This document shows, in pieces, positions 19,203 through 61,262 of a stretch of DNA of 64,000 bases. The position numbers and the translations under genes are program-made. The notes beneath the pieces were generated by a model, which made no database searches, was not told where the DNA came from, and was given only the letters and a program-made list of their open reading frames with translations. This stretch comes from Kappaphycus alvarezii (taxonomy: Eukaryota > Rhodophyta > Florideophyceae > Gigartinales > Solieriaceae), in NCBI GenBank assembly GCA_002205965.3, contig NADL03000471.1, forward strand, positions 2,790,001-2,854,000, read 5' to 3'. Positions within the stretch are counted from its first letter, which is position 1, and every line of letters begins with the position of its first letter.

Positions 19203-19340
19203 TCGGCTGGAAAGCTCACTGAACCGTACTCTTACTGTAGACTCAGCAGTAGCAACGTTTAAGCAGGGCTCCCAGCCATTACACCACTCGCAGTAAACCA
19301 CCCAAAAACGTTCCCGCTTCCCCTGACTCTTTGCCTTCTA

Positions 19341-25879: not shown

Positions 25880-26096
25880 GTTGGGGAAGAGGTCGGTTTT
25901 TTCCTCTGATGTGTGTCGAATTGTCACCTGGCTTTTCGCCACTATGAAGTCTTACTCAACGATAATTTTGTGGGCTACAAGCTCCATTACGGCCAATACG
26001 ATTTCCCAATCATCTGACAAATATGTGGTTGAGCTCTGCTATTTCGAGCTATCATTTTCACTAAAGTGATTAGCACAATTCAACTTGGCGCCAACA
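25880..26096 (-). repeat. 3' LTR of copia K
   Basis: 217 bp with TG...CA ends (forward strand TGTTGGGGAAG to TTGGCGCCAACA). It matches 31,243-31,457 with scattered differences and small indels, so the insertion is not very recent. Confidence 0.92.
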
Positions 26097-31242: not shown

Positions 31243-31457
31243 TGTTGGGGAAGAGATCGGTTTTTTTCTGATGTGTGTCGAATTGCCACCTGGCTTTTCG
31301 CCACTATTAAGTCTTACTCTACGATAATTTTGCGGTCAACAAGCTCCATTACGGCCAATACTATTTTTCAATCATCCGACAACATGTGGTTGAGCTATGC
31401 TATTTCGACTTATCATATTCACTAAAGTGATTAGCACAATTCAACTTGGCGCCAACA
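31243..31457 (-). repeat. 5' LTR of copia K
   Basis: 215 bp, the partner of 25,880-26,096, with the same TG...CA ends. Flanked outside by gcggt. Confidence 0.92.
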
Positions 31458-34319: not shown

Positions 34320-35322
34320 TGGGCAGATCTACTCCTCTCACTAAAAAACAAAAAGAAAGAATTTTGGCACTTTTCATCAAATTACACCAGAACGAAAGAT
34401 TGCGCAGTTTATTGGAAAATCTAAGACAGCTGTACACAACTTTATTGCAGACTAATGAGTGAAAAAAGCTTTAAAAAGCTCGACATTCCGAAGGAGATAT
34501 CCAACACTCAGCTGCGAGCTTTATTTAAGCATGCATCTACTGGAAATTACACTGCAAGAGAGCTACAAAACAGTCTCATTTTATCCGTTTCTGTTCGCCA
34601 CATACAGCAGCTGCTATCTGGAAGATATTTGGTTTAAAAGAAGAAAAAAACCGTTCTTTCCATGACTGTGGAGCATAAAAAATTATTTTATGATTGGGCC
34701 AATGATAATGTTACTTGGGGCATCTCATATTGGAAGGATGTTATATTTAGCGATGAGAAGAAGTTCAATTTAGATGGCCCTGATGGATTTGCCTTCTATT
34801 GGCACGATTTGCGTAAAGAACCGCAATTTTTTTCTATATGTCGGCAAGGAGGATCATTTGTCATGGTTTGGGCTGCTATTTCATACTATGGGATGTCTAG
34901 TATCGTGTTTATTAATGAGAAGCAAGATTTCAAACTGTTCTGTAACGTTCTGGAAGAAGATTGTTTACCGTTTGCTGACAAATACGTTGGTGATACATTT
35001 TTTTCAGCAGGACAATGCAGTCACGCGTAGAAGTATTTACACAAAGCATTGGTTAGAAGGCAATGATGTCTATACTTTACCTTGGTCTGAAAAATCTCTT
35101 GATTTGAATCCTATAGAGAGCATGTGGGGGACTTTGGCCCGCGAAGTTTATCGAAATCAGCGCCAATTTGCATGCGTCGCTGACTTGGAAGAATGCATTA
35201 TTGATTACTGGCATCGTATCAATAGAAGTGTCGTTAAGGGCCTTTTCAAGTCTATGCCTAATGGCTGTATAGAAGTGATTGAACGCAAGGGTAACTTTAC
35301 TCACTACTTCCTTTTTAAGTGA
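34320..35322 (+). pseudogene. Tc1-type transposase (DD34E), broken
   Basis: A cut-and-paste transposase relic. The N-terminus (MGRSTPLTKKQKERILAL) leads into a helix-turn-helix (ERKIAQFIGKSKTAVHNFI) after a frameshift near 34,380. A second HTH-like part (TARELQNSLILSVSVRHIQQ) is at about 34,550-34,610. The catalytic core has VIFSDEKKFNLDGPDG (first Asp, about 34,741-34,788), FFQQDNAV (second Asp, after a frameshift near 34,998) and SLDLNPIESMWGTLAREVY (Glu, about 35,095-35,150). There are 34 residues between the second Asp and Glu. Stops at about 34,453 (TAA TGA) and 34,636 further break the frame. The end is at 35,320-35,322. Confidence 0.88.
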
Positions 35323-37293: not shown

Positions 37294-38971
37294 TTGGTAA
37301 TGGGAGAGATACCCCAGACTAGACAGGACAAGGAGTTTGCGGGAGAAGAGTTGAGGAATTGGGTACGCGCGGGTATCTTCGAGGAGATTGGGAAGGAGGA
37401 GGTGGATGTAGTAGAATGGACTGGAAGGTCCACGTACCAGGTGGGGGTTTTAGAAGCGAGGCTTCTTCGGGGCACCAGTCTAGCTGGGCTAGACAGCTAG
37501 GAAAGAAGCAGGGTAGGGCGACCGTAGGTCGCGCTCGAAAAAGACTAGGAGGACGCCCTAGGATCCTCCAGGTGGGCCAGGAGTGGGTATATGAGAAGGA
37601 AAAAGGGGAGAAAAGGAGAAAGGATGAGGGAGACGGTTAGTTAGGGTAGGCGATCCTACTCCAGGAAACGCCCGAAAGGGTTAGTAAAATGTGACTACTC
37701 CGGTCACTTTGTCTACTACGGACACGAGTAGCGCCGCCTACTCCGGAAGTACGCTAATTGGTCTAGCTTTAGTGATCCCGTGCATCGCTAGGCTTGCCGG
37801 TCACTCAACTAGGCAAAACCTAGACAAACTACACCGGACTGCTTCGGTCTCGGTGGTGCTGGTCAGGGAATTTTGGGGATGGAAGTTGGTCTATTGGTTC
37901 GATGGTTTACTGGTAGGGATCCTAAGGCTGACGGCCCTAAGTATGTAGTAACGGTTCCACCTACTGTGGCACTGTCAGCTAATTAGTCCTACAGTAATTT
38001 CTAAAATAAAGGGATAATTAAGTGAATAATTGCAATTGCCTTGGCCCTACACGTGGCCCTAAAACTAGGCAATCACACGTGGCACTACAGATGTGCCCTG
38101 GGTAGGACAGCCTGTCCGTACTGTGGTGAGAACAGTATGCGCGCGCGAAAATAAAAGGCCAGGTTCCCACAGTGGATCGGATCGTAAGGGATGAGAAGAT
38201 GGTTTCGCCATCGTTCGTGGCGTGGCAAGGGGGGAGAAGGAGAGGAAGGCAAGGTATATGATCAACTTCAACATCCAAAGAAAGCGTTGGCCGAAGGGAA
38301 TGGTGAGGCTGGAAACTGTACAGTCGTTTTGCGGTGGAAGTGGAGAAGGGGGATGTGATGATGTCTTGGGATTTCAAGAGCGGTCACCGACACTTTTATC
38401 TCCATCTGGATATCCGCTACTTCTTCCGTTTCGGATACAATGAGCACTATTACCGGTGCATTGCGTTGCCGTTCGTTTGGGGCCGGTTGGGTAATGGTTT
38501 TGCAAAATTCTACGGCCGCCGAAGAGGTACTTGAGCGAGAGGTTGGGGTACCGTGTACTGCCGTATATAGAAAACTTTCTGTTGGCAACGTCTTCGCACG
38601 GCTGGGTGGCTACAGAAGAGGACTACCGAGAGGCTGAAAAAGTGCTGGACAGACTGTTCGGAGAGTGGGGGTTGGTGAGACACCAAGAGAAAGTAGTGTG
38701 GGGAGGGTCGAGTCGTATCGAGCACTTGGGTGTCCTCATCGACACAAAAGAGGTACGGGTGTACGCCACGGATCGGAAGTTGGCGCAGTTACGGAAGCTG
38801 GCAAAAAGGATCATTGCGTTGGCACAACGGAACAGGAGATTGGTGCCACTGGCGATGCTGCGAAGCTTTTGTGGAATACGCGTGTCCCTTTCGCTCGCCC
38901 TACCGATGGCATGTTTCTACACGCGCTCGCTCTACTTCAATATGTCTTTGTTGGAGCGGCGGTTTGCGTGA
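37294..38971 (+). pseudogene. Reverse transcriptase of element Q, split by an insertion
   Basis: The N-terminal RT part reads FAGEELRNWVRAGIFEEIG and STYQVGVL (37,330-37,452), then is interrupted. It resumes with SPSFVAWQGGRRRGRQG-type sequence at about 38,205 and FNIQRKRWPKGMVRLETV (38,266-38,320). After a frame change come GDVMMSWDFKSGHRHFYLHL (catalytic Asp) and HYYRCIALPF. The active site YMDDF is degraded to LPYIENFLLATS (38,551-38,590; IEN for MDD). The post-RT region reads RIEHLGVLIDTKEVRVYATD, LKLAKRIIALAQRNRR-like sequence and LALPMACFYTRSLY, ending at 38,971. RNase H is largely deleted; a WPAKPWFARLRGM block (39,148-39,186) marks its far end. Confidence 0.7.
37460..38180. other. Foreign ~0.7-kb non-coding insertion within the element Q RT
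   Basis: Between two parts of the same RT domain, about 700 bases show no RT peptide in any frame. Near the left border is a self-complementary stretch (CTAGCTGGGCTAGACAGCTAG, split as CTAGCTG...CAGCTAG, about 37,481-37,501). Further in are repeated CCGGTCACT and ACACGTGGC words. No terminal repeats or target duplication could be fixed. It may be a non-autonomous element. Confidence 0.45.
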
Positions 38972-39448
38972 AGCGATGCGACGCGCTGTAACGGAAGTGG
39001 GATCCGAGGGACGTACAAGCGACATAGGAGGAGTTCAGGTCGATACAAGAGGAGTACGAGATGGAGGAGGTCGTGTTCCGAACACAGCCGCTAGGGAGAA
39101 AGATCGGATAAGAAGGGGAAGTTGAGGTGATCTTGGCGCCGAGATGGCCTGCGAAACCCTGGTTTGCGAGATTACGTGGAATGAACTCAAGCATGTTCGC
39201 TTTGGGGAAAGGGCGAGAGATGTATTTCAGCGGTCATCTGGTCAACGAGGGCTGAGGTTTGATGGTGGTGGAGATAGATTACGGTCCGAGTGGGAGGAGG
39301 GGATAAGGGCGGTGGTTCTATCGAGAAAGGGAGCAGGAGCCGGAAAGGGAGGAGATGCAGGGGCGGGGAGGAGGCAGCGTCTCTGTTGGCCAAATTTGGA
39401 TAGGAAGAATCGACATGGCGGAATTGGACGAGTTAGTTGAACAAATAG

Positions 39449-40503: not shown

Positions 40504-41750
40504 CCCACTCACCCTCCCGTGCGGGCCACTTCAGCATGCCTTTCACTGGTGGTGGTTCTAAGGTCCTGTCACTACGAGTACTTTAGGTGTGCATTAGTTT
40601 TTGGTTGCAACCTTAATGCGGGTGTCCATGCGATTGAGGTAAATCAACATAAATCTTCATTACTTTATAACCCTCCTTTAAATAATGTCGAACTTATTCA
40701 CTGTAAGCGGAACCCATGCACATTTCCAATGCATTTAACTCGTTCACACCCTTTCATTCTTCACGCCCATTTGCTAATTGTTTACTCCTGAGTACTTAAA
40801 TACCAACCACAAACTGTGCTGTGGAACTTTACATCATCATCGTTGTACCAAGTACACGGCTAGTGTTTTGTACGACTATCGTCAATAAACAACGCCCTGT
40901 CTCGGGTCCTGTTTGATAAGTTCAGTTGACGCACCTGACACGAAGGTTCGCACTCGGACAATCAGGCCGTTCCGGTACAACGTAATCGGTAGTTTTGGAC
41001 AACAAATAAGCCCTTTAGAACTCCAGTACAGTACAGTATACTGTGTGGTAAATCTTTAAAAGTTGTACTGTACTGTATTGTATAGTACAGTATGGCACAG
41101 AAGCGTGCGGAGGGTAGTCAAAAATTAACTACGAATGCGGGCGACGGGTGGAAACCTATTGCGCTATACTGTACAGCATTTATGAAGAACAATCATTGCG
41201 TCGCGTCCCCTCCCCGCATCGTGTGCAGTCCCGAGTAGATACTGAAGAGAGAGAGAAGGATCTTTACTCGTTGCTGACCTTGAGCGTGCACCGACTGACC
41301 GACTATTCAGATAAGGAATAACTGGATGGACCAAAGCGGTCACGTGCATTAAACCTCCTTTTCCGAATAGACCAATTCCCCTGCTTCCTCACGGACCCCC
41401 TCTTTCGGAGCCGCAGAAGGCGCCTCATCCTTCGCTGCATTATTCATTGGTTCCCTCGGAACTCATCCCGCTCCACAGTTGTTCGGCCGGTTCCGGACCG
41501 CGCGTCGACCCTCCTGAGCACACTCCACCACCTAAGCCGCCCGGTGGTATCTCCCTCCATGTTCTCTCTCCTCCACGACACCCTCAAGTATGCTTTTTAC
41601 CCCGATGCATGATCCCTGATTCTAGGATAGGACCCGCCACGAAGACGATACAGCCTGAATTATCTGCCACAGTGTAGGACAAATATGTCCTTTCACTATA
41701 GAACTCTGGTCTGTGGGCTCTCTGTGGTGTTCATAGCCCATGATGGCTCT
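40504..41750. other. Unassigned spacer with GTACT repeats
   Basis: No gene supported. It contains the GTACTG repeat pair (41,023-41,094). A Pro-rich open frame on the plus strand (41,447-41,677) has no recognisable family. Confidence 0.45.
41023..41094. repeat. Inverted pair of GTACTG-type runs
   Basis: CCAGTACAGTACAGTATACTG (split: CCAGTACAGT then ACAGTATACTG) is followed 25 bases later by GTACTGTACTGTATTG, its approximate inverse, giving a potential hairpin of about 70 bases. The same words occur at 8,808-9,001. Confidence 0.7.
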
Positions 41751-41820
41751 TTGGTGTAATGATTAGACAATTATGAGTGAATTAATGGAGAGGCTTCATC
41801 ATGTTTGAATTCCACCACTA
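41751..41820 (+). repeat. Left ~70-bp terminal direct repeat of P
   Basis: Shares GTAATGATT, GACAATTATG, GTGAATTAAT and the CTTCA(T/C)CA...TCCCACC-like end with 45,007-45,075. Confidence 0.7.
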
Positions 41821-42083
41821 CAAGCAAATTACGCGTGGCAACCTTGTTCCTACTCTTTGCAATGTCACAAGTACACGAAGTCTGAACCCAAGTGTCAACT
41901 GGGTAAGGTTCTGTTGTGTAAGCACTTGCGCAAGTGCGAAGGCAACCCGTTGAACAGGATTATATAATCTTCGACTTTGGTCGCAATCGGTGCTGTCTCT
42001 GCTCCTCCAAGTTGTGTTTTTGTAATAAATAGAACCAACTCAAGACGATCCAATCGTCTAGGTCGCCATTCACAAATCACCCA

Positions 42084-42843: not shown

Positions 42844-43049
42844 AAAAAGAGTTAAACAAGCAGCTGGCCTCATCCGGGATCCGCCGCGGTAAAAAATCTA
42901 AAAGGAAAGAAAGCCCCCCTCAGGATCCAAAAATATCTCACCATTAAAGCTGCCATTATCGCGACTTTTTCTTTCTGGCGGGACTCACATATTACGGCGA
43001 AACACCCAGAGAGACGTCTCGCTATGGAGTGATTACCTCCACGCTTCTC

Positions 43050-44870
43050 AATTCCTCATGCGTGTTATTCTTTTTGGAGTATACGACGTAGAATTTACGA
43101 CTTCCTGTTCCCTTTCAATATTCAAACTCCCTCAAATCCCTGTCGACCCGAAGCACAGTGAATTCTTCGACATAGTCATCGGCGACGCCCTATATCGGAG
43201 AACATGCGAGCAGATATCTCCTTCTACCGCCTTCGATCTGCAATGCCAAAGCTACCCAGTCACAAACGCTTTAGTCGCAGATTCCGCTGATAAGCAACGT
43301 CCCGTAGTAAATCTCTCTCGCCATTCTACCTTGTTCAGAGTAATCGTCGTCAAAAAGAAAACCCTGTAATACTAGGATCTGGGACTCAACCAAGCTGATC
43401 AAATATTCCCGTTCGATACCGCCAAGGTTTTCCATAACTATCGGCTACAACCGAAAATCCGAAATCGGTCTCCATTCAAAGTCGACAAAAGACACTTCAG
43501 ATACATCACGCTGCCCTTTGGCTGGAAAATCTCGGGCGCTTATTTCGTCAAGCTTATGTGGCCGCACCTCTGCTATGTTCTCCAGCATTATCTTTTGTGA
43601 CTGTTTCCGTGCATGGACGACTTTCTAATCACTGTTTGGAGTCAGTCCCTAGTTAGAAAAGCTCTTCACCAAATCTATCGTCTCGTAGCCTTTCGCGGGC
43701 TGTTGCGCAAGAAGGACAAGTCTGATTCCCGGTTCCCGACGACTTGAACACCTTGTATTCGTACTAGACACTGCGCACATGATTTTTGGCATCTCTGCCC
43801 GTCGAATGGAAACGATATGTGGAATTTACTAGCAAATTTTACTAAAAGTCGACAAAATCACCAACTGGCTGACGTCAAGCTGTCACGTCACTTAACCGGA
43901 GTGGCATTTTTATGCTCTCTCGCAATGCCGCTCGCGCGCTTCTACACAGGGTCGATGTACGCCTGTCTTGAAGAGAAAACCACTAAATCCTGGAAAAGAT
44001 TCCGCCTCAAACGCGGCAATCCGAGATCTCAAGTTTTCGAAAGATCTCATCGTTCATCCACCTCAACGCCCCATCAACGCCATCCCTTACTCTGGCGATG
44101 CACTCAGGCACGTAATCCTCCATTTGCCTGGGAGTAACGCCGAATTCGGATCTCCGATCGAGAGCCCAAGAGACATGGGAGGGTTTGGGCCTGTGGGATC
44201 TGGTACTTAGCGTCAAGCCAATTACATTTCTGGAACTATGGGCCGTGACCGACAATATCAGATCGTTTGCCAAGATGTTACGCTCTGTTACACATCTCAA
44301 GATTTTGGAAGAAAAAAAAGAGGTCTTTTCCATACTGAATTCCATTAATACCAAATACAGACCACTGATGCGATGAATGAGAGTTTTGCACCGATTTATC
44401 ACCCATCTGGGGATCTCTATTGAATTTCAATATCTACCCTCCACTGTGAATCGTTTCGGCGACATGTTTTCTCGTCTCCACACACTGAACGATTGGAGGA
44501 TCAGCACTAAACCACTCAGATCCCTGTTACGCAACATGGCACCCATATTAGTTCGTTTCGCCGGCAATTCCAACAAAATATGCCTTCGTTACAACAGCGA
44601 GCATGCGACTCCTGGATCCCTGGACATAGACGCCTTCAGCCAAGACTTGAGCCACGAAAGGAACTTTTGGAACCCATAACTCAAGCTAATACCCCATGCC
44701 GACACCAAGACCTGCGAAGAGAATGTCCAAGGTATAATGGTCACCCCTAACTGGCCCGCTCAGTGATAGTTTACCCAATTGCTGAAGTTTTCAAGCCCAC
44801 ATCTTTTCGACGCCGAAAACTTATATCTTCAAGCGATTTGAGCACCTCCACCCCTACCAGGTCTGCGGTA
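43050..44870 (+). pseudogene. Reverse transcriptase-RNase H relic of P
   Basis: RT N-terminal block: LPQIPVDPKHSEFFDIVIGD and VVNLSRHSTLFRVI (43,129-43,345). The palm block is in another frame: PFDTAKVFHNYRLQPKIRN and ITLPFGWKISGAYFVKLMWP (43,408-43,568). The active-site box reads PCMDDFLI (CMDD for YMDD, about 43,609-43,631). Then FTKSRQNHQLADVKLSRHLTG corresponds to NRRLVNVPLLRHFAG of A. RNase H: ITFLELWAVTDNIRSFAKML, LKILEEKKEVFSILNSINT (catalytic EDNQ changed to EEKK), and QYLPSTVNRFGDMFSRLHTL. The end block is GIMVTPNWPAQ at about 44,730-44,765. Many stops are present. Confidence 0.72.
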
Positions 44871-45006
44871 GAAAATGTTTAATTGGAAGAATATCTAGAT
44901 GAACGTGTGATGCAGTGTGATGACTCTCTCTTTTTCTTCATTCATTTGCTCTGCCCCTCACCTTTGCAGCATCACTTCGTTCCTTTGGATTTCTCAATAT
45001 ATTATT

Positions 45007-45075
45007 CGATGTAATGATTGGACAATTATGGGTGAATTAATATATAGACTTCACCATTTTTGCATCCCACCCTCT
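45007..45075 (+). repeat. Right ~70-bp terminal direct repeat of P
   Basis: Partner of 41,751-41,820. Its last bases (CACCCTCT) abut the palindrome arm, whose matched sequence starts CTATCTCC at 45,076. Confidence 0.7.
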
Positions 45076-48000
45076 CTATCTCCTTATGTATAAGCTCGTC
45101 AAGATACCAGTTCTTTAATGCAAAAATTAGTGCATTAGGAAACGTTAAAAGTAAATGAGATAGCGTTGAAGCCTTCTGTAAATCAATATAGACAAAAACG
45201 CAGCAACAAATTTCTGAAGAGACCAGATTAAAAACTAATCTTGATAAAAATTCCCTTATTTAGTAGCCTAAAGATTTCTTTTAGCTCCAGAACTAGTTAT
45301 TTCAACGACCAGTCCAAAACTATTAGTTTCTTTCCTTCAAATTCTTACCTTAAAACTTGAATTTGATAGTCATCCCGATGAGAAATCAACGCCTAGTGTT
45401 CTTTTCAAATCATACAGTCCGTCATTGAAGAAAAAATGGCTGTGCTTCATGTAAAAAAAGCAAGCTTTTGTAAATATAGTGTCCCTTTCCCTATGTATTT
45501 TGACGAAAATGTATTTTTGTTGCCAAAATGGCGCCAGCATATCGCTAACTTGTGCATATCGTCAATATTTAGTACAAATACATGGCTTAAGATCAAATTT
45601 TCCTCTGTGGCAGCAATGTTTAATATTCTTAGACCCCACCTGACTATACTGTAGTAATTTTATGGTGTTAAGTCAGGAAAACGTTTTAATCATATTAATC
45701 GAAAATTTTCGGTCAGGTTTGAGTATTTTTCTTTTTTGAGAATGTAACTGGATAGAATAGAGTTTCCCTTGATTCTCTAGAGAGAATATACGGTCATTTT
45801 TTATGCTAGCAGAATTTTGTGTCATGTTCTTAAACAGTACCTGGAAGATATTACAGGACCGTAAGATTCCTTTACCTGCCCAATTGATTTAAATAGACGC
45901 TCAAGAACCTTATTGAATTTTTAAGTCTACTTTGATGTTGTGCGATGGGAGAGATTTTAATCGAATAGCTTACATTCTGCAGTGCTATATATATCCATCT
46001 ACATGACAATGGCTTCTTTTTTACGTAAAAAATATTGGAAGCAGATGTTTTGCTATACTTTAATAAATCTTTTGTGAAAATAGGCACTGCAGGGTCAAAT
46101 ATGAAAACAGACATGAAAAAGATATACGTGTCAACAAATTTGAATAACAGAGGGGCTGCAGTATGATCTATTTGCAAAGCCTGGGTACTTCATTCAAATA
46201 TGGTTGCGTCTTCCAAATCTGCTTATGTCTCAATTTACAGTGAACAAGTGTGGTCTTGCGAAATGTGGCAAAAAGGGGTTGGGATACTTAATAGCTCAGT
46301 TGGTGTTCTTTGAGGTACCACAGCCCTGCTTTATTTTCAGAAACATTCCTCACGAAACAGATACATGCGAACATGAGACCGTAGCGCGAAAACCCTTTAT
46401 CCCACTAGCACACACCCAACGTACTCAGTCACGCGATTTCAATACCACTCTATTTCATTATTTTGCTTTCCTTCTCCCTACAAATGGAGCCCAAAAATGC
46501 CTGTGCAGCCCTTGCTTTGAATTCAATTACAGGTGCGCTGTTGAGCGCGGAAAAAATTGGAAGAAAGGGATTCACTTCATATTCAAGACGACCGCTTTGT
46601 GGAAAATAAATCACTGATACAATTTTTGAAGCGTTTCATGAAAGGATTGAAAGTTAATCAGTTGTCTAAATGACAAACATTTAGCTAGCTCAGCTTGAAA
46701 CGTCGTTGAAAACGTTCCAAGATTACTTCGAGCGATCCGTTTGAGATGAAATGGGGAAAGAAGCCATCATGTGGCAGGAAAAATTTAATTTATGATGGTG
46801 AGGGTTCTAAAAAACTTAAGGCAGTAGAAATCTTTTGTGAAACTGTTTGGCATCAAAACTTATAAATTTGAGCGACTTACATTGACGTTCCCCCATTGAT
46901 CTCCAACCCGTCTTATGAGAACTTCGTTGCCCTTCACGCTAAAGTAGAAATATATTTACTTACTGACAAGAAAAATGTGTTACTCAGCAACCTAATTGCT
47001 AAGTATGCCGTTACGTACCTTTCAACTAATTTTCATCCTTCAGGTAGTTTGCAGAAAGGTAAAAATATTACAGTGATAACCATGCAAAGTATGTGTACAA
47101 TGTGGAATTATAGGCCCTTTACGAAGATGTAGATATATGCACAAGCGCACAAGAGCTCAAAAGCGTTATTGATTTCAAAACTTTTTAATTAAATGCATGA
47201 TTTCGTGGTAAAACTTAAAAAATACAGCGATTTGACGGAAATATGGACAACGATGGTCAAATAAAGGACTTAAATCCATCTTGTTGGGCAATACTCGTCT
47301 AAAAATTGCAGAAAAGTGTTTAGGAGTTTATTAGGAATGCAAATTCGAATAGAAAGGCTCTGTACGTTGTTTTAACTCCAGCCTATGTTGCTCATAAGTG
47401 TCGAGCGACTCTGTATTGGTTGAGAAGTACTTTGGTTGTTTGCGGATTGTGGAATTTTGTCGTAAAACGTTTAATTGGGCTGAAAGTAACTAGAATGTGG
47501 TACTTATGCTTCAGTATGTTTGGTTTTGAGTGATTTCCATGTGGCCTGTAACCCGTTACGAACAACTGATGGACGTACATATTACAAGCAGAAAATTGCT
47601 GGTACAGTATCTATTAGTCCCAGTTTGGGAAGCGTGAGCATTTGCAAGTAAATACCGTGATCAATATTGGTGTCGTGTCGACATGCAGTTCATAGCGCTG
47701 GGTAGAAGCATTGCTATGCATCGAAATCGCTGGAATATCTCGTAAATGTCACTGCATCGCACAGTTTTGCAATTTTTCTCTTTTAATATTGATTTATTGT
47801 GTCTGCTTTCCATTTTCAATTTCAATTCCTTTTTCAGCGTTGTCAGTCGCTGAAAATGTTAGCATATTCAGGCATAATTACTGCTCTTCTGACTGGATAA
47901 CAATTCTTCGATATTTGGAAACGAGACTCATTGAGAACTATTTGCGCAGTTGGCGCCTAACTTTAAGCTGAATTCAGTAAGCGGGAAAGAATGTAAATTG

Positions 48001-48290
48001 AATCCTCATGTTTATCATTTCAATCATCGGTCGAGCATTTTATTTATTAAACAAGTGAATAATATATTGAGAGGCACACATTTAAAATTCAACACGTTGT
48101 CCTAGTATCTGGGGAAATCCGGATTCAGCGTGTTGTGCGAAAGTGCGTGTGTGCAAGTACTTGCGCAAGTACTTGCACACTAGAATATTACCCGATAAAT
48201 TCGTTGGTCCAGCCTTGGTACACTTATGAAATTGTTTAGAGTAAGAACATTACTTAAGTTCTTACTCTAAACAATTTGAAATTACTTAAG
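45076..48290 (+). repeat. Left arm of a 6.43-kb near-perfect palindrome
   Basis: Each base pairs with the reverse complement of 48,292-51,507. Position sums are 96,582 in the inner part and 96,583 in the outer part, the step coming from a one-base indel near 46,050. I found six substitutions (45,126; 45,203; 45,288; 45,963; 46,682; 48,203) and that indel in the stretches compared, about 0.2% divergence. The arm is AT-rich and has no recognisable domain. Its largest frame, 46,204-46,617 (137 codons), is mirrored at 49,965-50,378; smaller mirrored frames include 45,436-45,654, 46,896-47,132, 47,392-47,580 and 47,711-47,971. Whether any is expressed is unknown. Confidence 0.97.
48151..48178. repeat. 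28-bp perfect palindrome in the left arm
   Basis: Two GCAAGTACTTGC-type units back to back form GTGCAAGTACTTGC followed by its reverse complement. It could be a protein-binding site or hairpin. It is mirrored at 48,404-48,431. Confidence 0.9.
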
Positions 48291-48353
48291 TTCTTACTCT
48301 AAACAATTTGAAATTGTTTAGAACATTACTTAAGTTCTTACTCTAAACAATTT
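48229..48353. repeat. Centre of the palindrome: three direct repeats plus inverted partners
   Basis: The 29-base unit beginning ATTACTTAAGTTCTTACTCT and ending AAACAATTT occurs at 48,249-48,277, 48,281-48,309 and 48,325-48,353. Its partial inverse (AAATTGTTTAGAGTAAGAAC) is at 48,229-48,248 and a shorter inverse piece at 48,311-48,324. The turn-around point therefore sits inside a small tandem array rather than at a simple loop. Confidence 0.9.
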
Positions 48354-51300
48354 CATAAGTGTACCAAGGCTGGACCAAAGAATTTATCGGGTAATATTCT
48401 AGTGTGCAAGTACTTGCGCAAGTACTTGCACACACGCACTTTCGCACAACACGCTGAATCCGGATTTCCCCAGATACTAGGACAACGTGTTGAATTTTAA
48501 ATGTGTGCCTCTCAATATATTATTCACTTGTTTAATAAATAAAATGCTCGACCGATGATTGAAATGATAAACATGAGGATTCAATTTACATTCTTTCCCG
48601 CTTACTGAATTCAGCTTAAAGTTAGGCGCCAACTGCGCAAATAGTTCTCAATGAGTCTCGTTTCCAAATATCGAAGAATTGTTATCCAGTCAGAAGAGCA
48701 GTAATTATGCCTGAATATGCTAACATTTTCAGCGACTGACAACGCTGAAAAAGGAATTGAAATTGAAAATGGAAAGCAGACACAATAAATCAATATTAAA
48801 AGAGAAAAATTGCAAAACTGTGCGATGCAGTGACATTTACGAGATATTCCAGCGATTTCGATGCATAGCAATGCTTCTACCCAGCGCTATGAACTGCATG
48901 TCGACACGACACCAATATTGATCACGGTATTTACTTGCAAATGCTCACGCTTCCCAAACTGGGACTAATAGATACTGTACCAGCAATTTTCTGCTTGTAA
49001 TATGTACGTCCATCAGTTGTTCGTAACGGGTTACAGGCCACATGGAAATCACTCAAAACCAAACATACTGAAGCATAAGTACCACATTCTAGTTACTTTC
49101 AGCCCAATTAAACGTTTTACGACAAAATTCCACAATCCGCAAACAACCAAAGTACTTCTCAACCAATACAGAGTCGCTCGACACTTATGAGCAACATAGG
49201 CTGGAGTTAAAACAACGTACAGAGCCTTTCTATTCGAATTTGCATTCCTAATAAACTCCTAAACACTTTTCTGCAATTTTTAGACGAGTATTGCCCAACA
49301 AGATGGATTTAAGTCCTTTATTTGACCATCGTTGTCCATATTTCCGTCAAATCGCTGTATTTTTTAAGTTTTACCACGAAATCATGCATTTAATTAAAAA
49401 GTTTTGAAATCAATAACGCTTTTGAGCTCTTGTGCGCTTGTGCATATATCTACATCTTCGTAAAGGGCCTATAATTCCACATTGTACACATACTTTGCAT
49501 GGTTATCACTGTAATATTTTTACCTTTCTGCAAACTACCTGAAGGATGAAAATTAGTTGAAAGGTACGTAACGGCATACTTAGCAATTAGGTTGCTGAGT
49601 AACACATTTTTCTTGTCAGTAAGTAAATATATTTCTACTTTAGCGTGAAGGGCAACGAAGTTCTCATAAGACGGGTTGGAGATCAATGGGGGAACGTCAA
49701 TGTAAGTCGCTCAAATTTATAAGTTTTGATGCCAAACAGTTTCACAAAAGATTTCTACTGCCTTAAGTTTTTTAGAACCCTCACCATCATAAATTAAATT
49801 TTTCCTGCCACATGATGGCTTCTTTCCCCATTTCATCTCAAACGGATCGCTCGAAGTAATCTTGGAACGTTTTCAACGACGTTTCAAGCTGAGCTAGCTC
49901 AATGTTTGTCATTTAGACAACTGATTAACTTTCAATCCTTTCATGAAACGCTTCAAAAATTGTATCAGTGATTTATTTTCCACAAAGCGGTCGTCTTGAA
50001 TATGAAGTGAATCCCTTTCTTCCAATTTTTTCCGCGCTCAACAGCGCACCTGTAATTGAATTCAAAGCAAGGGCTGCACAGGCATTTTTGGGCTCCATTT
50101 GTAGGGAGAAGGAAAGCAAAATAATGAAATAGAGTGGTATTGAAATCGCGTGACTGAGTACGTTGGGTGTGTGCTAGTGGGATAAAGGGTTTTCGCGCTA
50201 CGGTCTCATGTTCGCATGTATCTGTTTCGTGAGGAATGTTTCTGAAAATAAAGCAGGGCTGTGGTACCTCAAAGAACACCAACTGAGCTATTAAGTATCC
50301 CAACCCCTTTTTGCCACATTTCGCAAGACCACACTTGTTCACTGTAAATTGAGACATAAGCAGATTTGGAAGACGCAACCATATTTGAATGAAGTACCCA
50401 GGCTTTGCAAATAGATCATACTGCAGCCCCTCTGTTATTCAAATTTGTTGACACGTATATCTTTTTCATGTCTGTTTTCATATTTGACCCTGCAGTGCCT
50501 ATTTTCACAAAAGATTTATTAAAGTATAGCAAAAACATCTGCTTCCAATATTTTTTACGTAAAAAAGAAGCCATTGTCATGTAGATGGATATATATAGCA
50601 CTGCAGAATGTAAGCTATTAGATTAAAATCTCTCCCATCGCACAACATCAAAGTAGACTTAAAAATTCAATAAGGTTCTTGAGCGTCTATTTAAATCAAT
50701 TGGGCAGGTAAAGGAATCTTACGGTCCTGTAATATCTTCCAGGTACTGTTTAAGAACATGACACAAAATTCTGCTAGCATAAAAAATGACCGTATATTCT
50801 CTCTAGAGAATCAAGGGAAACTCTATTCTATCCAGTTACATTCTCAAAAAAGAAAAATACTCAAACCTGACCGAAAATTTTCGATTAATATGATTAAAAC
50901 GTTTTCCTGACTTAACACCATAAAATTACTACAGTATAGTCAGGTGGGGTCTAAGAATATTAAACATTGCTGCCACAGAGGAAAATTTGATCTTAAGCCA
51001 TGTATTTGTACTAAATATTGACGATATGCACAAGTTAGCGATATGCTGGCGCCATTTTGGCAACAAAAATACATTTTCGTCAAAATACATAGGGAAAGGG
51101 ACACTATATTTACAAAAGCTTGCTTTTTTTACATGAAGCACAGCCATTTTTTCTTCAATGACGGACTGTATGATTTGAAAAGAACACTAGGCGTTGATTT
51201 CTCATCGGGATGACTATCAAATTCAAGTTTTAAGGTAAGAATTTGAAGGAAAGAAACTAATAGTTTTGGACTGGTCGTTGAAATAACTAGTTCTAGAGCT

Positions 51301-51507
51301 AAAAGAAATCTTTAGGCTACTAAATAAGGGAATTTTTATCAAGATTAGTTTTTAATCTGGTCTCTTCAGAAATTTGTTGATGCGTTTTTGTCTATATTGA
51401 TTTACAGAAGGCTTCAACGCTATCTCATTTACTTTTAACGTTTCCTAATGCACTAACTTTTGCATTAAAGAACTGGTATCTTGACGAGCTTATACATAAG
51501 GAGATAG
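48292..51507 (-). repeat. Right arm of the 6.43-kb palindrome
   Basis: Reverse complement of 45,076-48,290 with one extra T. Matching ends at 51,507; beyond it (GTACGTAGAG) there is no similarity to the sequence left of 45,076, and no flanking target duplication is seen. Confidence 0.97.
48404..48431. repeat. 28-bp perfect palindrome in the right arm
   Basis: Mirror copy of 48,151-48,178, identical in sequence. Confidence 0.9.
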
Positions 51508-54500
51508 GTACGTAGAGAACTATGGACATGAAAAGAATTTTACTAGGAAGCGTTCTAGTTAAAATTTTCAACTAGTCAACGAATTTTTTGCCTCTTTTAT
51601 TAATTCTCGATGATGTACACGAATTATCGTAGCATTGATAATATTGAATTGGTAATAATCGCTTCTGCCGTCAATTTGGCGCGCAACTACAATGCACGCC
51701 AAAAGGTGTATTTTATTGATTAAATTTAAGTTATACGTGCAACACGAAAGTAAAAGTATGTAATAGTCGGCGAGGATGAATATTTTGGTGAAAAATGTAG
51801 TTCGACATTCGGGAGAGAAAAAGAGCCCGTCCCCGTGTAGCAATGAGCATGAATACGCATATCAAAAACCAAGGTTGCAAAAAGGTAGTTCTGTAGCTCC
51901 GCCAATTACAAATAGAACTATCCCCGTCTCAAGCACTGTAATATGTTCTTTTTTAACCCTACGAGAGCACTTTTTGCTAGTACATGGTTGGTGAGGATTC
52001 ACTGTTGGTTCTCAATCTTGGGAGTGTCGTCTATGAAATTGATGTGGTTGGAGTTTTTGAGAGTACTTAGGCTGCTCCAGGAAAGTTTTAGTACAAGGTC
52101 TAGAGGAAGGGAGATTCGGTGATGAAGACGGGAATTCTGGCTGATCTGACATTATTCAGCCATAAATACTTTGCTTTTGAGGGTGAATATTGTTGAAGGA
52201 GCATTCGAAGATCAGCAACAGTTGCTTAAGTTGATTTTTCTGTACGTAACCCAACAAGCAGGTGAGACATTTATGGCAGTGACAGCCCACTGGTATTTCT
52301 TAGTTGCATGGAGTGAGTGAATCCAGGTTAAGATTGGGCATTTGAAGGGAATGTATAGTCCATTTGCAAAATCCGAAACAGGTTAGCTAAATGGTGAGCA
52401 AGCATGGTATAATATTGAGCGTTTGAAAACTTAATATCCGCTCTTTTCTACGAAAGTTGCTTAATGATGCAGAATCCAGTTTTATTTCGAGGTTTCGCAG
52501 CGACATTTGTATTGAAGACTTACATCGTTTTTCTGTTCATGATCACTAAGTTGCTGTCCTTCCTTATCTTAGGTTTATCTTGGATTCCGAAGAGTTTTTC
52601 TTTGTTTAATTACGCCTTAATAATTTAGGATAAGTGATGATCCTTCTCTTGAACAGTTATAAATGACAGGTGTGCTTGAACTTCAACTTCAGTAAATTAT
52701 ATCCTAAAGTTACTTCCTCGGAGCGAATTATCTTTTAATCCGGCAGATTATCTAGGTTACCTCTAGAGGCTAACTTTCTTACACCTGACTGTACTATCGC
52801 TTTTTCGAGCCCGGCATGCACCTAATTAATGCTTCGACAAAGGCAGTGTCTACATTCTCTTTCACGTAGCCTTCTTTGGAGGCTATTATAGTCAAGTCTA
52901 CATGGTACGCTTTATTTTACTCTTTAATTATTCCAAATGATGTCGAAAACGCTCTAGATGACTTTAAATATAATATCTTTAACAAATCAGTTATAGATGG
53001 ACTGCAACTGACAATTTCAATGTTTTTTGTAACACGTTCGAAAGGGAGATGGACATTTAGGAAATGTCCCTCTAGGCAATAACCTCTACCCACCCTTCTT
53101 ATCTTTTAAAATTCCTAAACTTCTATGACTTGAATGGTACAGGCAAAAACCTGCCTTTAGCATCGACGATAACACGATATGGCCCGGATGCGACAAAAAA
53201 CCTTGTCTTTTAGACCGAATAGTCTGAAAACCGACAAAGCGAATAGTATAGAATTACAGTGTGGTATTATTTAGACAGTTATGGTTCTGAATTTTATATT
53301 TCGTTGCCTGGCCCATATTCCTTACAGTTTTAAGGTTAAATTTATGTTAAAAACTATTTCATCTGCGCCAGCTAGACACAGTAGGGTTTTGATTCGCGAT
53401 CCATGCCAATCTCATGCGCGTAGATCTGAATTTCTTGAAATAGACGCCTGTGGGTCGTAACCAAAGATTACGCGAGTATGCAATTTGCTTGCCATATATA
53501 TCACGGCCATTCTCATTAACAGTGGAGCTTATACACTTAGATTGTAACGAAAGTTCTTCTTTCATTTGGAACCTTTCATTATTTAGCCTAGAGATATTTC
53601 AAAACTCCTTTAGCGGCAGCGAAATTATTCGATTTCATAATTTCCACTGAATCCGTGCTTATTATAATAGAAAATATAACTTCATTGATTTTGCAGGGCT
53701 TTATTTTCATTATGTGGATGTTTTTTACTATCAAGTACTTTTTCCCATACGTCTCATGTGTCTAAACGGCCGTAGAATAGTCAGAGCAGGTTTAGATAAC
53801 AGCCACATGCGATCTCAAATTCAGGCAAAGGATTTTTGATTACATTTTTTCTCTCAAGCGGCTCCAAGTATTTAGTTTAATACTGACTGACATTAGAAGT
53901 ACACAAGTCGAACGCTAATGTTGCGACTATTCTGGAAAAGTAGACTCGAGTACTGATTTTGTAAAGTCGAAGAGTGCTGCAAAAATATTTTACTCATTTC
54001 ATCACTGTTTCGACCACTTACGCAACGGGCTTTGTACTTTTTAATATCTTTGATTGACGATTTGAGTAAGAGCACTAAGAGTAATACTTAGTAATGATAA
54101 GGGTAACTCATTTTCATTGGGGTTCTAGGTTCATAAACCCCTTGAAATTTCCGCTTTTAGTAATTTCCTTTATTTCTTTCCTTTTGGAAGGTCTAATTTT
54201 AGTGGTCTTGGATAGGTCATCGATCTCGTGAATTACCCCTAAGTCCGATAATAAATCATATTCTGATGACTAAAACTTTTAATATTCATGACTTGGGTTC
54301 GAGAAAAATGGGCAGTAGTTCTGGTGTGAAATAAAATTTCAGCCAAGCGATGTTAGACCGTTCAGTAGGGCCCTTATCGGGAACAAAGAATACGAAAATT
54401 TTTTGACAAGTTTGACAATACAAATTTCGAACAGTAACATTGATTCACCGGTGTAGTTTTATACGAACTTTTCGCGACGTACAAGAAGGAGGTCTCCGGA

Positions 54501-55297
54501 GAGATATGAGTGGTCCGCAGAATGCAGAAATGCGTTCGGAAATTCTCGACAAATTTTCGGCATGTTAATTTGGCCTTCAATTTAGTTGCGCGCAGTTTTA
54601 GCGAGTTATCTGCTTTGCGGTAATTTCTGACTGAGAAATCGAGTTTCGAGAGCTGTTTGTATTTTTAGGCCTTCACTGACTACAAGAACAGAAAGAATGA
54701 AGCCCTTCGTACTTAAAACTTCATTTCTAACCTTCACGATACATGGAAGAGCCATTTATTTTGTCCGTGCGCGGTTGATTTTCAAAACTTTTGCGGTAAG
54801 TACGTGCAGCACAACTTTTCATAATATATTTAGCACATATTGACCACTGGGTGTGATTCAATGTCTATTTTATTGACCAATAAATCTTAAATAGAGGTTA
54901 ACATCGGCAATAATTTCACTGCGTCTTGATATATGAAGCGTTAATACGATTTGGAAGCCCAGTATATATCGAGCATCAACTGCCAATATTCTCTAAAGAG
55001 ACGTTTTTGGTGTATATTACTCATAAATCGCTCAACGAAGAATATAATCCACAATGTATCGAACGTATGTATCACTTACATACATTATTTGAAGGAGTAT
55101 TCACTTCTTAATGCGCAAATTTTAGGCACAGAGTGGGTCTCAGAACTTATTAGGAGAGTGATAAATTCATTGGAATTTATTTCATTACCTTGAAATCCCT
55201 TTACGAATTCTCAATGTTGCGAGTGTGTTATCTTCCGATTTTGAGCCTTTTACGAGGCTGAAAACTTTCCTTGCTGACAAATGGAAGAATTTGGGAT
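51508..55297. other. AT-rich stretch without recognisable genes
   Basis: Open frames are all short (under about 95 codons), lie on both strands and show no known motifs. No repeat, tRNA or element end was recognised. It may be host intergenic DNA or contain short exons that cannot be called by eye. Confidence 0.5.
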
Positions 55298-55336
55298 AAC
55301 GCAGGGACAACCTAAGGCACCAGGGTACTGTTGCCA
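55298..55336 (+). repeat. Left flanking direct repeat of element N
   Basis: AACGCAGG(G)ACAACCTAAG followed by GCACCAGGGTACTGTTGCCA. It matches 61,225-61,262 with one indel and one change. It may be a very short LTR, the remnant of one, or a duplicated flank. Confidence 0.8.
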
Positions 55337-55447
55337 TATTCCGGAATACGGCATAGTGCGAGAGTGGTCCGCTACGTTGTTCTACAACCAATTGCAACCA
55401 CGTGAGAATGTGCCTTTGCACTTGCTGGAGCCTACAGTACCACGAGA

Positions 55448-57628
55448 GTGGGTGTCTGTACTAGACCTCCGAAACTTCAAGAAAATTCATCTCTGCGCGC
55501 CCATTTGCAAGAAACTGCAGAAGCGTCAAATCAAAGAACGACCGTGAAACATCGTCTTGGTCCTCGAATTCGTTCCGGTATACAAACTCGCCTCGGTGAA
55601 CGTAAAAGGCGCACCGGCTACGGGAGACAAGTGACCAACGCGACATCCAGACTTAGCATGCGTCGTCCGAAGCTTTCTTCTACTGCGTTAACTTATGCGG
55701 AAGGGGGTTTTTCAGACATGCCCAGCGGGGCCGAGCAGTCGGTCTTTAGACCTTCCAACCGAAGAATCGTTCCATGGAACAAATTGAGCTTGACAAGCGA
55801 TGAGCAGCACCAGGTCGTGAATGTATTTCGCGAATTCGACGACTACCATCCGGATGCAGATCCCGACCAAGTAGTTGAGATTATCCGTCAGAAGTAAACC
55901 GTTTAGCTCCTAACTAGGGTCAAAATGTTCTCGAACTACAACGTCTATAAGTGCATCAAACAATTTTTAGGGGCCAAGTCTGTGCCAGTAAGAGATCACG
56001 TCCTTGGCACTAACTTGATTATGACCAGAGTAGTAGCCGCAGTATGGCCAGAAAATACTCATGGTAACGACCTAAACGAAGCATTGGAACGTTGTAATGC
56101 GCACAGAGAGGGACGCGTAGCGCCCTCCGGGAATCCACTACAGTTTACCCCGCGAGACATCCAGATCCCGTCGAGGGGACAGGAACTGCAAACACAAGAC
56201 CCCATTGGTAACTTAGCCTCCCAAGGGCCCCAGCGGTCGGAGTTAGATGAGGTGAGACGTCGGTTGGATATCTTGGACCAGGGCGGCAGGTCCGAAAACG
56301 ACAAGGTAGCGAACCTGTACAGCAAAGTAGTCGCTTGTTACAAAGGTGACACATGCAAATTCGGCGGGACTAATGAGAAGAATTGGAACCAGGCCCGCGC
56401 GGATTACGTTTGCCATTCCGAGATGTTGTCTTTGACGCGCCAACAGAAACTGCTGTTCCTGTCAATAATCTTTCGAGATGAGGCGAAGTTTTTTATAACA
56501 GCGAGATCAGGCATATGAAGACCTGGGGCGAGGTGATAGGGATGCTAAACGAGCGATACAACGGCCACGCCCGTAAACGCTCGATAGTCGACGAGGTGCG
56601 AGGTTTACAGCTGCGCAGTTTCATAACCGAGGGTAACCACGAGGGTGAGGCACTGGAGAAGTTGGCGAGGCGCATAGAGAAGTTAAGTCCACAGTGTACC
56701 GCAGGACGGAACGGTGACGCCGACAAGCGCGATGCCCTCTATTATGGGTCCGGATGATGGATTTGGCCACCATGCCAATAGCCACACTGGAAGGGTCCAG
56801 CAAGACGTACAAACAACTTATGGATGTGCTGGAATCCGCGGAGCAGAATCACCGCATAAGAATGACAATCCAGGGCAAGGTGGGAAGTGGCAGGTCGATG
56901 CACTGGCAACCAAGTGGGGAAGGGTCGGCAAGGACAGAGTCACGAAACTTGGCACCAACCTCGTAGCCTTCGTCTGGTACCATGGAGAGTCACAGTATGG
57001 TCGAGACCCCCGAGCCCCGAAACGAAGCTAAATACCACATAAAAGAGACAAACGCTGTTATAACTGTGGAGGTAGGGATCACATTCTACCCAAATGCTCG
57101 CTCCCGAGGGACGATGACAGGGTAATGAAAAGCAGGATCAAGGATCTAATCCGCAATAAGAGCAAGAGCGAGCAGGTGAAGTTATTGCAGAAATTAATAT
57201 CCGAGCAGTCCGCGCACGTAAATTTTCTCTCCGAGCAATTGTTCGACCATTTGAAGGACTCTCAGAGCGCGAGCTCGAACAACGCCAGTGAGGGATCTGC
57301 TTCGGAGAGCGGTGACACCGACTCAGCCGGGGAGGAGGACTCCTCCTCGGACGCAGAGGGACGAGAGGATGAGGGCTTCCGGTACGTGATATACGCGCGA
57401 GTTGCGCTTCGCACCGGACACTCCGGGAGCGATCCGGGCTTTTCAAGCCCCCCGTCCGTTGAGTCAGAAGTTATCACCGCAGACTCTAATCCCTACTTGC
57501 CGGAGTGCACAGATCGCGCTTCGTGGCCGGCCGACACCAACACCGACATGACGCTCGTGGACGAGGGCTTCGATCCGAGGAATGAGTTTGAACACAACGG
57601 AGACACAGACATCGATTCGGATTTTTAG
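55448..57628 (+). pseudogene. Gag region of element N
   Basis: It starts with a basic segment (RLGPRIRSGIQTRLGERKRR, from about 55,550) in a frame open to 55,897. Next, 55,925-56,518 reads MFSNYNVYKCIKQFLGAKSV and later FGGTNEKNWNQARADY and QKLLFLSIIFRDEAKFFI. After a TGA the same frame continues KTWGEVIGMLNERYNGHARK and RGLQLRSFITEGNHEGEALE. A classic zinc knuckle CYNCGGRDHILPKC is at about 57,055-57,096, followed by a long open acidic/Ser-rich tail to 57,628 (GSASESGDTDSAGEEDSSSD). The role is RNA packaging and particle assembly by family analogy. Confidence 0.7.
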
Positions 57629-57699
57629 ACGGGAGTACAGAGTCGGCGTTGCGAAGTACTCCGCGCAACTAAGAACTCAACACTGTACGCGGCGAGCAG

Positions 57700-60600
57700 T
57701 GGAGTGCCCGCCATGTGGGCTGGGCCAGGCTTGTGACCCCTGGCGCGCGTCCAATCTGCGGTATACGCATAGTCAAGCGTATGAATTACCAGGAAAAAAA
57801 TGTTCACTCCAAGAATCATCGGAGCTTTGAAGGGTAATGCCTAGACATAGGGACACAGAGCTCATGCATCGGACTGGCCCAAGCAAAGGCCTACTGACAT
57901 GAGCGAGGAGTCAAATTGCGGATGAAGCGCTCCGACTACTCGTTACAGTTCGGAGACGGGCCGTACAGGAGTCTGGGGGTAATGGAGATTAGAATCCCGA
58001 CACCCGATGGATCGTTCATAGCCTTTGGGGCCGAAGTCGTCAAGGCAAACATACCGCTTCTCATCGGGATCGACGTATTGGACCAGGAACGACTAGTGGC
58101 TGACAATTTGTCTAACGTCCTGGAAAGACGCAGGTATGGATGGCGGCTACCTATTGCTCGGCGAAAGGGACAAATGTACTTGACGTGGGGTCTGTCCACA
58201 ACGCCTTTCACGCGACACGATTTTGTCAGAGCGGCCCAGGGCTGTGGGCCGGGCACGACATGGTTTACTCGGAAAGAATTGAAGAAGATGCACCTTCAGT
58301 TTTGTCATCCATCCGTGTAGAAGCTATACAATGTGCTCAAGCGCGTAGACCCCGAAAACACTAACGAGGAAACGAAAAGGACTCTAGAAAAAATAGTGGC
58401 GGCATGCAGCACCTACGCTAAGCACAGCCCACGCCCGCATTGTTTTAGGGTGACACTCCCGAAGGGGAGTGCGTCCACAACCACGAATTGGCCATAGATT
58501 TGGTATGCCTGGGCGCAAGACCTGCGCTTCACGTGGTTGACACTCACACTCACTTCAGCGCAGCGATGTTCTTGCCAGGAAAGAGTACCAAAGACGTTTG
58601 GAACTCCTTCATATTGTGCTGGGCGACGGCGTATGTCGGGTATCCGGATAAGTTCCGGGTGGATCAAGAGAGCATCTTCACCAGCCAGGAGTTCCGAACA
58701 CTATCAGAATCGGCTGGTATCGAAATACAGTTGTCTGGGGTCGAGTCCCATGATGCAATCGGAGTCACAGAGCACTATCATGAGCCGCTACGGATGATAT
58801 TCGCACGGATTCAAGAAGACGTGCCAGACATCGACACCCATATCGCACTGCAGCTCACCGTGAAGGCGATGAACCACACGATGTGACCCGAAGCGCTCGT
58901 GCAGTCGCTGTTGGTCTTTGGCTCTTTGCCACGCCTGTCGCCGCGTACTACTCCACTTTTGTCCCATTCGGACAGGATGGAGGCCATGGACGTCGCCCGC
59001 CTGTAAGTGGCTGAGATCGTCGCGGGGCTCAAGGTAAAGCGAGCTCTGCTGGCGAAGCTACCACCCGCCACGCGTTACTCGGTGAGTCCAGGGGAGGAGG
59101 TGTATGTCTATCCAGAGGTGGATGCAAAGGCCAAGAAGGCCTTCTGGAGTGGGCCTTACGCATTCACGAAAACTTTCAAAACCCAAGTATGGGTAATGCG
59201 CCTGGACGGAGGGGCGCAGTACAGTATAGACCACGTGTTGCCTCGGTCCGCTGGCGATGGTTGCACATTGATCAATTGGGTGAGCCACGCCGTCCGCGAG
59301 TGGCTATCATGGGGTAACAGCACAGCCCGGGTGTATGTCACTGAACAGTTGGGACCGGAAGACGCCCGACAGGAGGTCCCGCAGTTCATGGAGGCAAAAG
59401 AAAAGAGATTAAGGGGCTGATCGAAAAAAACGTGTACATATAAGGTAGTGTTAAAGGAAGACGTTCCGGACACGGCAAATGTGCTCGTCTGACGTCTTGT
59501 ACTGAGAATCAAGAACAAGGGCACCGACGCCGAAATATGCAAGGCGCGGTTTGTGGTCCAAGGGCATCGGGACCATGACAAGCACAAACTAGTACACTGG
59601 AGTGCAAATTTGCGGCAGAGCTCGATCCGCCTGTTGACAGCACTTGTTGCAGTTTTCGGGTTCCCGGTACAGTCCCAGGACGTGAACCAAGCATACCTAC
59701 AATCCGCAGACAAATTGATGCGGGACGTATACGTTGAGCCTCGGAAAGAATTTCAACTGGACCAGAACCAGTTGCTCAAGCTGCTCAAACCGTTGTACGG
59801 TCTCTCCGACGCGGGGGATTATTGGGACGTGACCATGACCCGACATTTACGTGAAGACTTAAAGATGGTCCAGTCCACGGTGGACGTAAGCCTGTTTTTT
59901 CAAGCGCCTTGGCAGTACGCTAGCTGGTTTGTCAGGAACTTATGTATATGACGGTATCCATGCCGGAACCGAAGAGTTCATGAGAGAATGCGATGAGACG
60001 CAGGCCAAGTTCGAATCGACGCCGAGGGATCTAGACAACTTCAAGTTTGCAGGGGTGCAAGTTGAAACAGTTTGCGAAGGAATTCGGTTGCACCAAGAGG
60101 AATATGCTAGGAGAATAAGGTCACTTCCCGACGACTGCAACTTCAGCGATTTCAGGTCAAGCAGGCCGATACTGTAATAATTAGCTCACACGCGGCCCGA
60201 TATTTCCTGTGCAGTCAACAAAATGACTCAGGTTACCGAAGGGAGTTTCGGTTTGGACGCAATACGAAGCATCAACAAATTTGCGCGCCATGCGCTCAGA
60301 ACAACGGGCAGGGGATTGCTCCAGCGGATATTTGACCTCAAATCACTCCACTTGCGATTCTGCACGGACGGATCCGTTGCAGGCAACCAGGATCGGTCCA
60401 CTCAATTGGGGTACATCGTGCTGCTGTGTGACAAGTACGACAAGTGCAAAATATTCCACTACAGTTACCACAAGAGTCGTAAAGTGGTTCGGTTTGTGCT
60501 CAGGGGAGAGGTATATGCGTTCGCAGATGGTAAGGATTTCGCGCTAGCTATCAAGAGGGACATTGAAGATATGACTGGTAAAATTCTCGCCGTGCGAATG

Positions 60601-60903
60601 TTTACAGACTCAAAGTCACTGTTTGACGTCATTACTAAGAACACTGTGACCGCCGAAAATAGATTAATGATTGATGGGTGTTCAGTGCGGGAGTTCTACG
60701 AGCGGTTCGATGTCAGCAACGTTGCGTGGATAAAGACGGCCTATAATCCGGCGTACGTAATGACCAAAGTGAAAGAAAACGACGTGCTGAACACCATTAT
60801 GAGCGTACAAACGGTGGCGCATCCTTTCGAACAATGGGTCATCCGAAACATCACAGAGAAACGCCAAGAATGGCATTCTGTTGGTACAGACCTTCGCGTT
60901 TAG
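57700..60903 (+). pseudogene. Pol of element N (protease, integrase, RT, RNase H)
   Basis: Protease: DIGTQSSCIGLAQAKAY (57,848-57,898) and IPLLIGIDVLDQERLV. Pre-integrase: KKMHLQFCHPSV (58,285-58,317). Integrase: ELAIDLVCLGARPALHVVDT (first Asp, ~58,495), FRVDQESIFTSQEF (second, ~58,665) and a Glu in GVTEHYHEPLRMIF (~58,780). RT: FVVQGHRDHDK (~59,550), SQDVNQAYLQSADKLMRDVY (59,675-59,735), LLKPLYGLSDAGDYWDVTM, and an active site reading GTYVYDGIHAGTEEF (YVYD for YVDD; Tyr at 59,947-59,949). RNase H is open at 60,223-60,903: LRFCTDGSVAG, LRGEVYAFADG, RMFTDSKSLFDVI and TAYNPAYVMTK, where the final Asp is Tyr (60,754-60,756). Frame changes occur near 58,900 and 59,920. Confidence 0.8.
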
Positions 60904-61224
60904 GAAAGCAGGGAGTGTGGATGAATAGATCCCAAGTGCACCTGTTAGCCAGGCTATTAAGTGGTTCGCATTGGCTTACGTGGAAACCTGGACAGGTACG
61001 AGGTAACCGTTTGGTTACTACCAATACAACCTGCAAAGTTCCGTACTTTAATATCGGCGACTTCTGAACGAATGTCGCTGCATTTAGGTGGCTCAACTCT
61101 TACGTGTGAAAGAGGATTGGGAGTGTTACTGAAGACCCACGATGGGCACAGTAAATGACAGAAAGATCAATTTTCTTTTTTTCTCAACTGGGCTGCACCT
61201 TTGACGGACAGTTCTGCAATGCCG

Positions 61225-61262
61225 AACGCAGGACAACCTAAGGCACCAGGGTACTTTTGCCA
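61225..61262 (+). repeat. Right flanking direct repeat of element N
   Basis: AACGCAGGACAACCTAAGGC then ACCAGGGTACTTTTGCCA, partner of 55,298-55,336. It lies 322 bases after the RNase H stop. Confidence 0.8.

Follow-up and report, generated by a model that had tools for sequence, protein, structure and literature searches.

How did a near-perfect palindrome of 6.4 kb come to lie at positions 45076-51507 of the window, i.e. the whole stretch of 64,000 nucleotides of Kappaphycus alvarezii DNA that was analysed, and does it represent a mobile element, a replicon, an artefact of reads or assembly, or the product of a rearrangement? The left arm (45076-48246) and the right arm (48336-51507) are reverse complements of each other and are separated by a centre of 89 nt, with an ambiguity of about 2 nt at the inner ends of the arms. 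An inverted-repeat search returned the arms as two ungapped pairs (46048-48262/48320-50534 and 45076-46051/50532-51507), and BLASTN of the window against itself gave a single self-match across 45076-51507 (6,440 columns, 99.27% identity, centre included). In the gapped alignment of the arms (3,171 vs 3,172 nt), six substitutions, at left-arm positions 45126, 45203, 45288, 45963, 46682 and 48203, and one 1-bp indel (T4/T5, near 46047) add up to 0.22% divergence. These analyses confirm the extent of the palindrome, and the gapped alignment confirms the divergence of about 0.2%, that the first-pass annotation had reported. Mismatches are located directly outside the arm ends 45076 and 51507, and the window contains no N. 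As had also been claimed, the arms are much closer to each other than the other repeat pairs of the window: the next-best inverted pair in the inverted-repeat search reaches 76% over 70 nt, and the BLASTN pairs elsewhere in the window are diverged copies of other elements, which are 64-95% identical. Apart from the terminal-repeat fragment described below, neither arm has any match in the window other than its partner.

The centre (48247-48335) had been placed at a turn-back near 48,291. It is indeed palindromic, but it is not a simple turn-round, since it contains 32-nt repeats and a stem-loop. The 32-nt unit, which is repeated and partly inverted, occupies 48249-48330 at 2.1 or 2.6 copies, depending on the row, and the arms are out of register there. 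The turn-round hairpin at 48229-48277, which is part of the BLASTN self-match, consists of a perfect 20-bp stem and a 9-nt loop. When folded as DNA, the segment 48215-48375 forms nested hairpins with an energy of -49.1 kcal/mol compared to a shuffle mean of -12.3 (z -14). This fold energy is no independent proof of a hairpin that preceded the event, because the complementary arm ends are included in the segment, and today's turn-round hairpin may in part have been made by the duplication event itself.

The earlier statement that the arms encode nothing recognisable holds for protein domains, since none of the seven arm ORFs gave a Pfam match above cut-off, but not for the inner ends, where about 90 nt per arm represent a fragment of a retroelement terminal repeat. 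Six of the seven ORFs had no Pfam match even at E 0.1, and the remaining one (45872-46177) matched DUF4422 at E 0.031 with 14.6 bits, which is below the cut-off of 25 for that family. The 137-aa ORF at 49965-50378 was compared with 5.8 billion proteins, which yielded one candidate and nothing at E 0.01, and with viral contigs, which yielded one pattern match and no relative. A result against the absence of coding in the arms is the longest stop-to-stop frame, which spans 157 codons, a length reached in only three of 300 simulated sequences. Rfam searches of the window at the gathering threshold and of 48336-52000 at E 1 found nothing, and neither did ARAGORN.

The palindrome lies directly behind a retroelement, here called E2, which terminates in the left flank, just short of the left arm. 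Its decayed pol of the reverse transcriptase type (42989-44859, plus strand) was identified by tblastn with P0016, a relative of the E1 and E2 pol that carries the reverse-transcriptase domain PF00078; the match covers 42989-44011 at 40% and 44089-44859 at 48% identity in different frames (E 1e-125). The same query located the pol of E1, a relative of E2, at 1-1843 on the minus strand, and a third, shorter relative at 38246-39007 (36-45% identity). When P0016 was compared with a prokaryote genome collection, none of the 24 pattern matches was confirmed and no relative was found. Among the best 60 of 167 matches to solved structures, it gave weak reverse transcriptase matches with a best E of 0.0012. 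The retroelement might be called 'DIRS-like', a class to which we do not assign it, because the sole hint is a sub-threshold Pfam match to the methyltransferase family PF05869 (E 0.08 and 0.018).

Other elements are present in the window. A frame at 12969-13970 resembles a reverse transcriptase (PF00078 above cut-off, 38 bits), and three of its 14 relatives come from the eukaryote set GFKZ01, which, like the lack of confirmed P0016 relatives in the prokaryote genome collection, points to a eukaryotic host; a second such frame at 19327-19905 remains below the cut-off (22.5 of 29.6 bits). The direct repeats 25879-26096 and 31243-31457, which are 91% identical over 218 columns and lie about 5.36 kb apart, resemble a pair of long terminal repeats belonging to a single element. 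The frame 34774-35322, which we take to resemble the end of a Tc1/mariner-type transposase, had no Pfam match at E 0.01. To the right of the palindrome, a direct repeat of 39 nt (55298-55336 and 61225-61262, 95%) was observed. It surrounds a frame at 57032-57628 that resembles a zinc knuckle and another at 60181-60903 that resembles RNase H, neither of which matched Pfam at E 0.01, and the stretch 55298-61262 is therefore taken as a candidate copia-like retroelement.

The evidence that carries our interpretation is the terminal repeat of E2, which is split by the left arm. Its uninterrupted reference is the matched part of the 5' terminal repeat (41748-41938, plus strand), to which nhmmer within the window assigned both pieces: the left-flank query hit 41748-41816 (E 3.5e-09), and the right-arm query hit 41845-41938 (E 1.5e-10). 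The first part of the 3' terminal repeat (45005-45075, plus strand) is matched up to 45071-45074 and breaks off at the palindrome edge; 55 of 67 positions are identical between 45005-45071 and 41750-41816. The second part (48334-48425, plus strand) forms the inner end of the right arm, where 66 of the 90 positions of 48334-48423 agree with 41846-41935 in the same orientation (E 6e-11). The scores of the two pieces, 86 and 84, were each matched by none of 500 letter shuffles. The identity between the two terminal repeats of E2 is 82% in the first matched piece and 73% in the second. The pieces flank the left arm at a distance of 3.3 kb, in the order and orientation of the 5' copy, in which the matched halves are separated by a gap of 29 nt (41817-41845). 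If the flanks are joined across the left arm, the alignment score rises to 152; taken singly, the pieces score 86 and 93, and the unaltered sequence scores 97.

The contiguous form of the repeat is apparently present in another member of the family, since E1 at 3116-2719 (minus strand) matches the 5' repeat and leader of E2 (query 8-350 of 360, E 9.5e-10). E1 also matches the left-flank piece (score 40, reached by none of 500 shuffles). Its match to the right-arm piece does not go past chance, as 178 of 500 shuffles equalled the score of 24, and the right-hand repeat match therefore depends on E2's own 5' copy. Each arm further contains a perfect 32-nt palindrome close to the terminal-repeat fragment (48149-48180 and 48402-48433), part of which matches the E2 5' repeat at 41915-41935 in 19 of 21 positions. 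This palindrome may be a hairpin that belongs to the terminal repeat itself.

From the terminal repeat, which was once unbroken, we conclude that the right arm (plus strand) is the native 3' flank of E2 and the source of the duplication, and that the left arm (minus strand) is its inverted copy, which came to separate the two halves. In the ancestral order, the right arm probably stood between the left and the right flank, with the left arm added later as an inverted insertion, whereby the ancestral contiguity is read from the left side only and by way of a paralogous repeat rather than an unduplicated allele. The opposite assignment was rejected: the terminal repeat does not carry on into the outermost 365 nt of the left arm, whose score of 25 was equalled by 218 of 500 shuffles. 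Nor did the right flank, compared in either orientation, or the inward-read outer right arm stand out from the shuffles, and for all of these comparisons, left arm included, 135-478 of 500 shuffles reach the scores. The only arm difference that can be polarised, 48203/48379, points in the same direction, as it is the right arm, and not the left, that agrees with the 5' copy there. With regard to composition, the GC content of the right arm (0.366) is close to that of the right flank (0.373), while the left flank, i.e. E2 itself, is at 0.474. On this basis, the AT-rich right flank (51508-55290, plus strand) is taken as the putative native continuation of the right arm.

We consider it probable that the palindrome is an interstitial inverted duplication which arose by fold-back synthesis or template switching. 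This was one of several options named in the first-pass annotation, and it is the one that found support, since the interrupted terminal repeat distinguishes the native arm from the copy. Two of the traces that such an event should leave behind are found here: inverted arms that are nearly identical and a hairpin with a 20-bp stem and a 9-nt loop at the turn-round. The starting chromosome would have carried E2 with its 3' terminal repeat, followed by 3.2 kb of AT-rich flank and the right flank. A break or a stalled fork inside the 3' terminal repeat would have exposed the 3' end of the right-hand side, which could have paired with itself at a short inverted repeat, today seen as the 20-bp stem with its 9-nt loop. 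The folded end would then have primed the copying of about 3.2 kb of its own strand up to the base that is now 51507, the direction of synthesis being deduced, and at 45075/45076 the new end would have met and joined the left-hand side of that break, as the position of the left end suggests. The extra 32-nt units of the centre suggest several short strand switches at this point. If the 3' copy was spaced like the 5' copy, the turn-round and the left join would be at most about 30 bp apart on the ancestral map, and a single break or stalled fork in the repeat could account for both. With only 0.22% difference between its arms, the duplication would be younger than E2, unless gene conversion kept the arms alike.

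The alternative that survives best is an artefact, in which a fold-back read or a whole-genome-amplification chimera would have turned at the hairpin, and its tail would have been joined to a left contig that ended there. We regard this as unlikely, and in any case as less likely than a duplication. Palindromic or fold-back reads are described as a recognised problem, for which removal tools exist, in the accessible parts of two reports (PMC6218980, PMC12870357), and a strong hairpin would be a plausible point of failure for both reads and contigs. However, since the sequence to the left of the palindrome is unlike that to the right and the window contains no N, the artefact requires two false joins, both of which would have to fall within about 30 bp of one ancestral point. 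Errors in raw long reads are usually indels, whereas six of the seven arm differences are substitutions, and at one of them the right arm has the base that is expected to be ancestral. The differences are skewed towards the outer edge (at a mean of 997 of 3,172 nt; p 0.04, one-sided), a pattern that poor coverage of a tail could produce, and the outer 212 nt of the arm hold three of the seven (p 0.008, in a test picked post hoc); this skew would fit an uncorrected read tail or a gene conversion favouring the centre alike.

It is considerably less probable that origin-dependent inverted-repeat amplification (ODIRA), acting via a hairpin-capped extrachromosomal intermediate, took the place of a break with fold-back. 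ODIRA, too, would lead one to expect short inverted repeats at the turn-round, and the iterated 32-nt units would fit repeated strand switching, but the structures that it explains according to the accessible part of the relevant report (PMC4689423) are interstitial inverted triplications, whereas only two copies, one of them inverted, are present here. Even less credible, in our view, is a foldback transposon or other palindromic mobile element that inserted into the terminal repeat. Its long inverted arms, short centre and location inside a host repeat would be accounted for; nevertheless, the 30-nt outer flanks share no word longer than 3 nt and no target-site duplication was found, the inner ends of both arms hold a piece of the very repeat that they interrupt, and seven arm ORFs are without a Pfam match above cut-off, the one compared with larger collections (49965-50378) having no relative there. 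The large foldback transposon put forward in the first-pass annotation is thus unsupported. A palindromic replicon, also suggested there, was rejected, since the left arm gave no match to phage and plasmid DNA at low stringency, Pfam and protein searches were negative for the seven ORFs and the one ORF, respectively, and different DNA lies on either side.

Our preferred reading, an interstitial inverted duplication by fold-back synthesis or template switching, most likely represents a known kind of rearrangement in a well-preserved example. The palindrome is informative in that the split repeat allows the events to be placed in sequence: an old retroelement would have been followed by a younger inverted duplication seeded at a hairpin in one of its terminal repeats. 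It also illustrates that a large near-perfect palindrome is not necessarily a mobile element or a replicon.

With respect to its possible consequences, the locus resembles Mu killer of maize, an inverted duplication with transposon terminal-repeat sequence, for which the accessible text of the report (PMC3440606) proposes a long hairpin RNA via read-through from the flank and reports silencing of MuDR. According to the same text, part of the transposase gene is contained in Mu killer, whereas all that could be recognised in the arms here is a fragment of the terminal repeat of an old element. It is conceivable, albeit highly improbable, that silencing is a natural function of the palindrome, in which read-through from the 5' repeat of the retroelement would yield a 3.2-kb double-stranded RNA, the terminal-repeat fragment included, and small RNAs that restrain related elements; if true, this would be an independent parallel of Mu killer in a different eukaryote.

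Regarding its origin, the closest counterparts are the foldback inversions of Saccharomyces cerevisiae, for which inverted duplication primed at a hairpin of single-stranded DNA is reported in the accessible part of the study (PMC7467729). Two loop classes are described there, one with a median of 3-4 nt and the other with a median of 36 nt; the loop of 9 nt found here would join the short class, which is under 15 nt. Unlike these yeast cases, which are selected gross rearrangements in need of further resolution, the product here is interstitial, with its outer end rejoined at about the same site. Fold-back has also been inferred for human inverted duplications, which, in the accessible text (PMC3907307), share with our locus a short inverted sequence at the turn-round and an unduplicated spacer between the copies. 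They are, however, large, lie beside terminal deletions, translocations or rings and have spacers of 766-70,466 bp, compared to arms of 3.2 kb and a centre of 89 nt in this palindrome. Taken as they are described in the available parts of both reports (PMC7467729, PMC3907307), fold-back products are mostly terminal, dicentric or further rearranged, whereas the palindrome here is interstitial. If reads confirm it, the locus would represent a natural case of fold-back synthesis in which both junctions have been kept, next to cited cases that stem, as far as these texts extend, from yeast screens and from patients.
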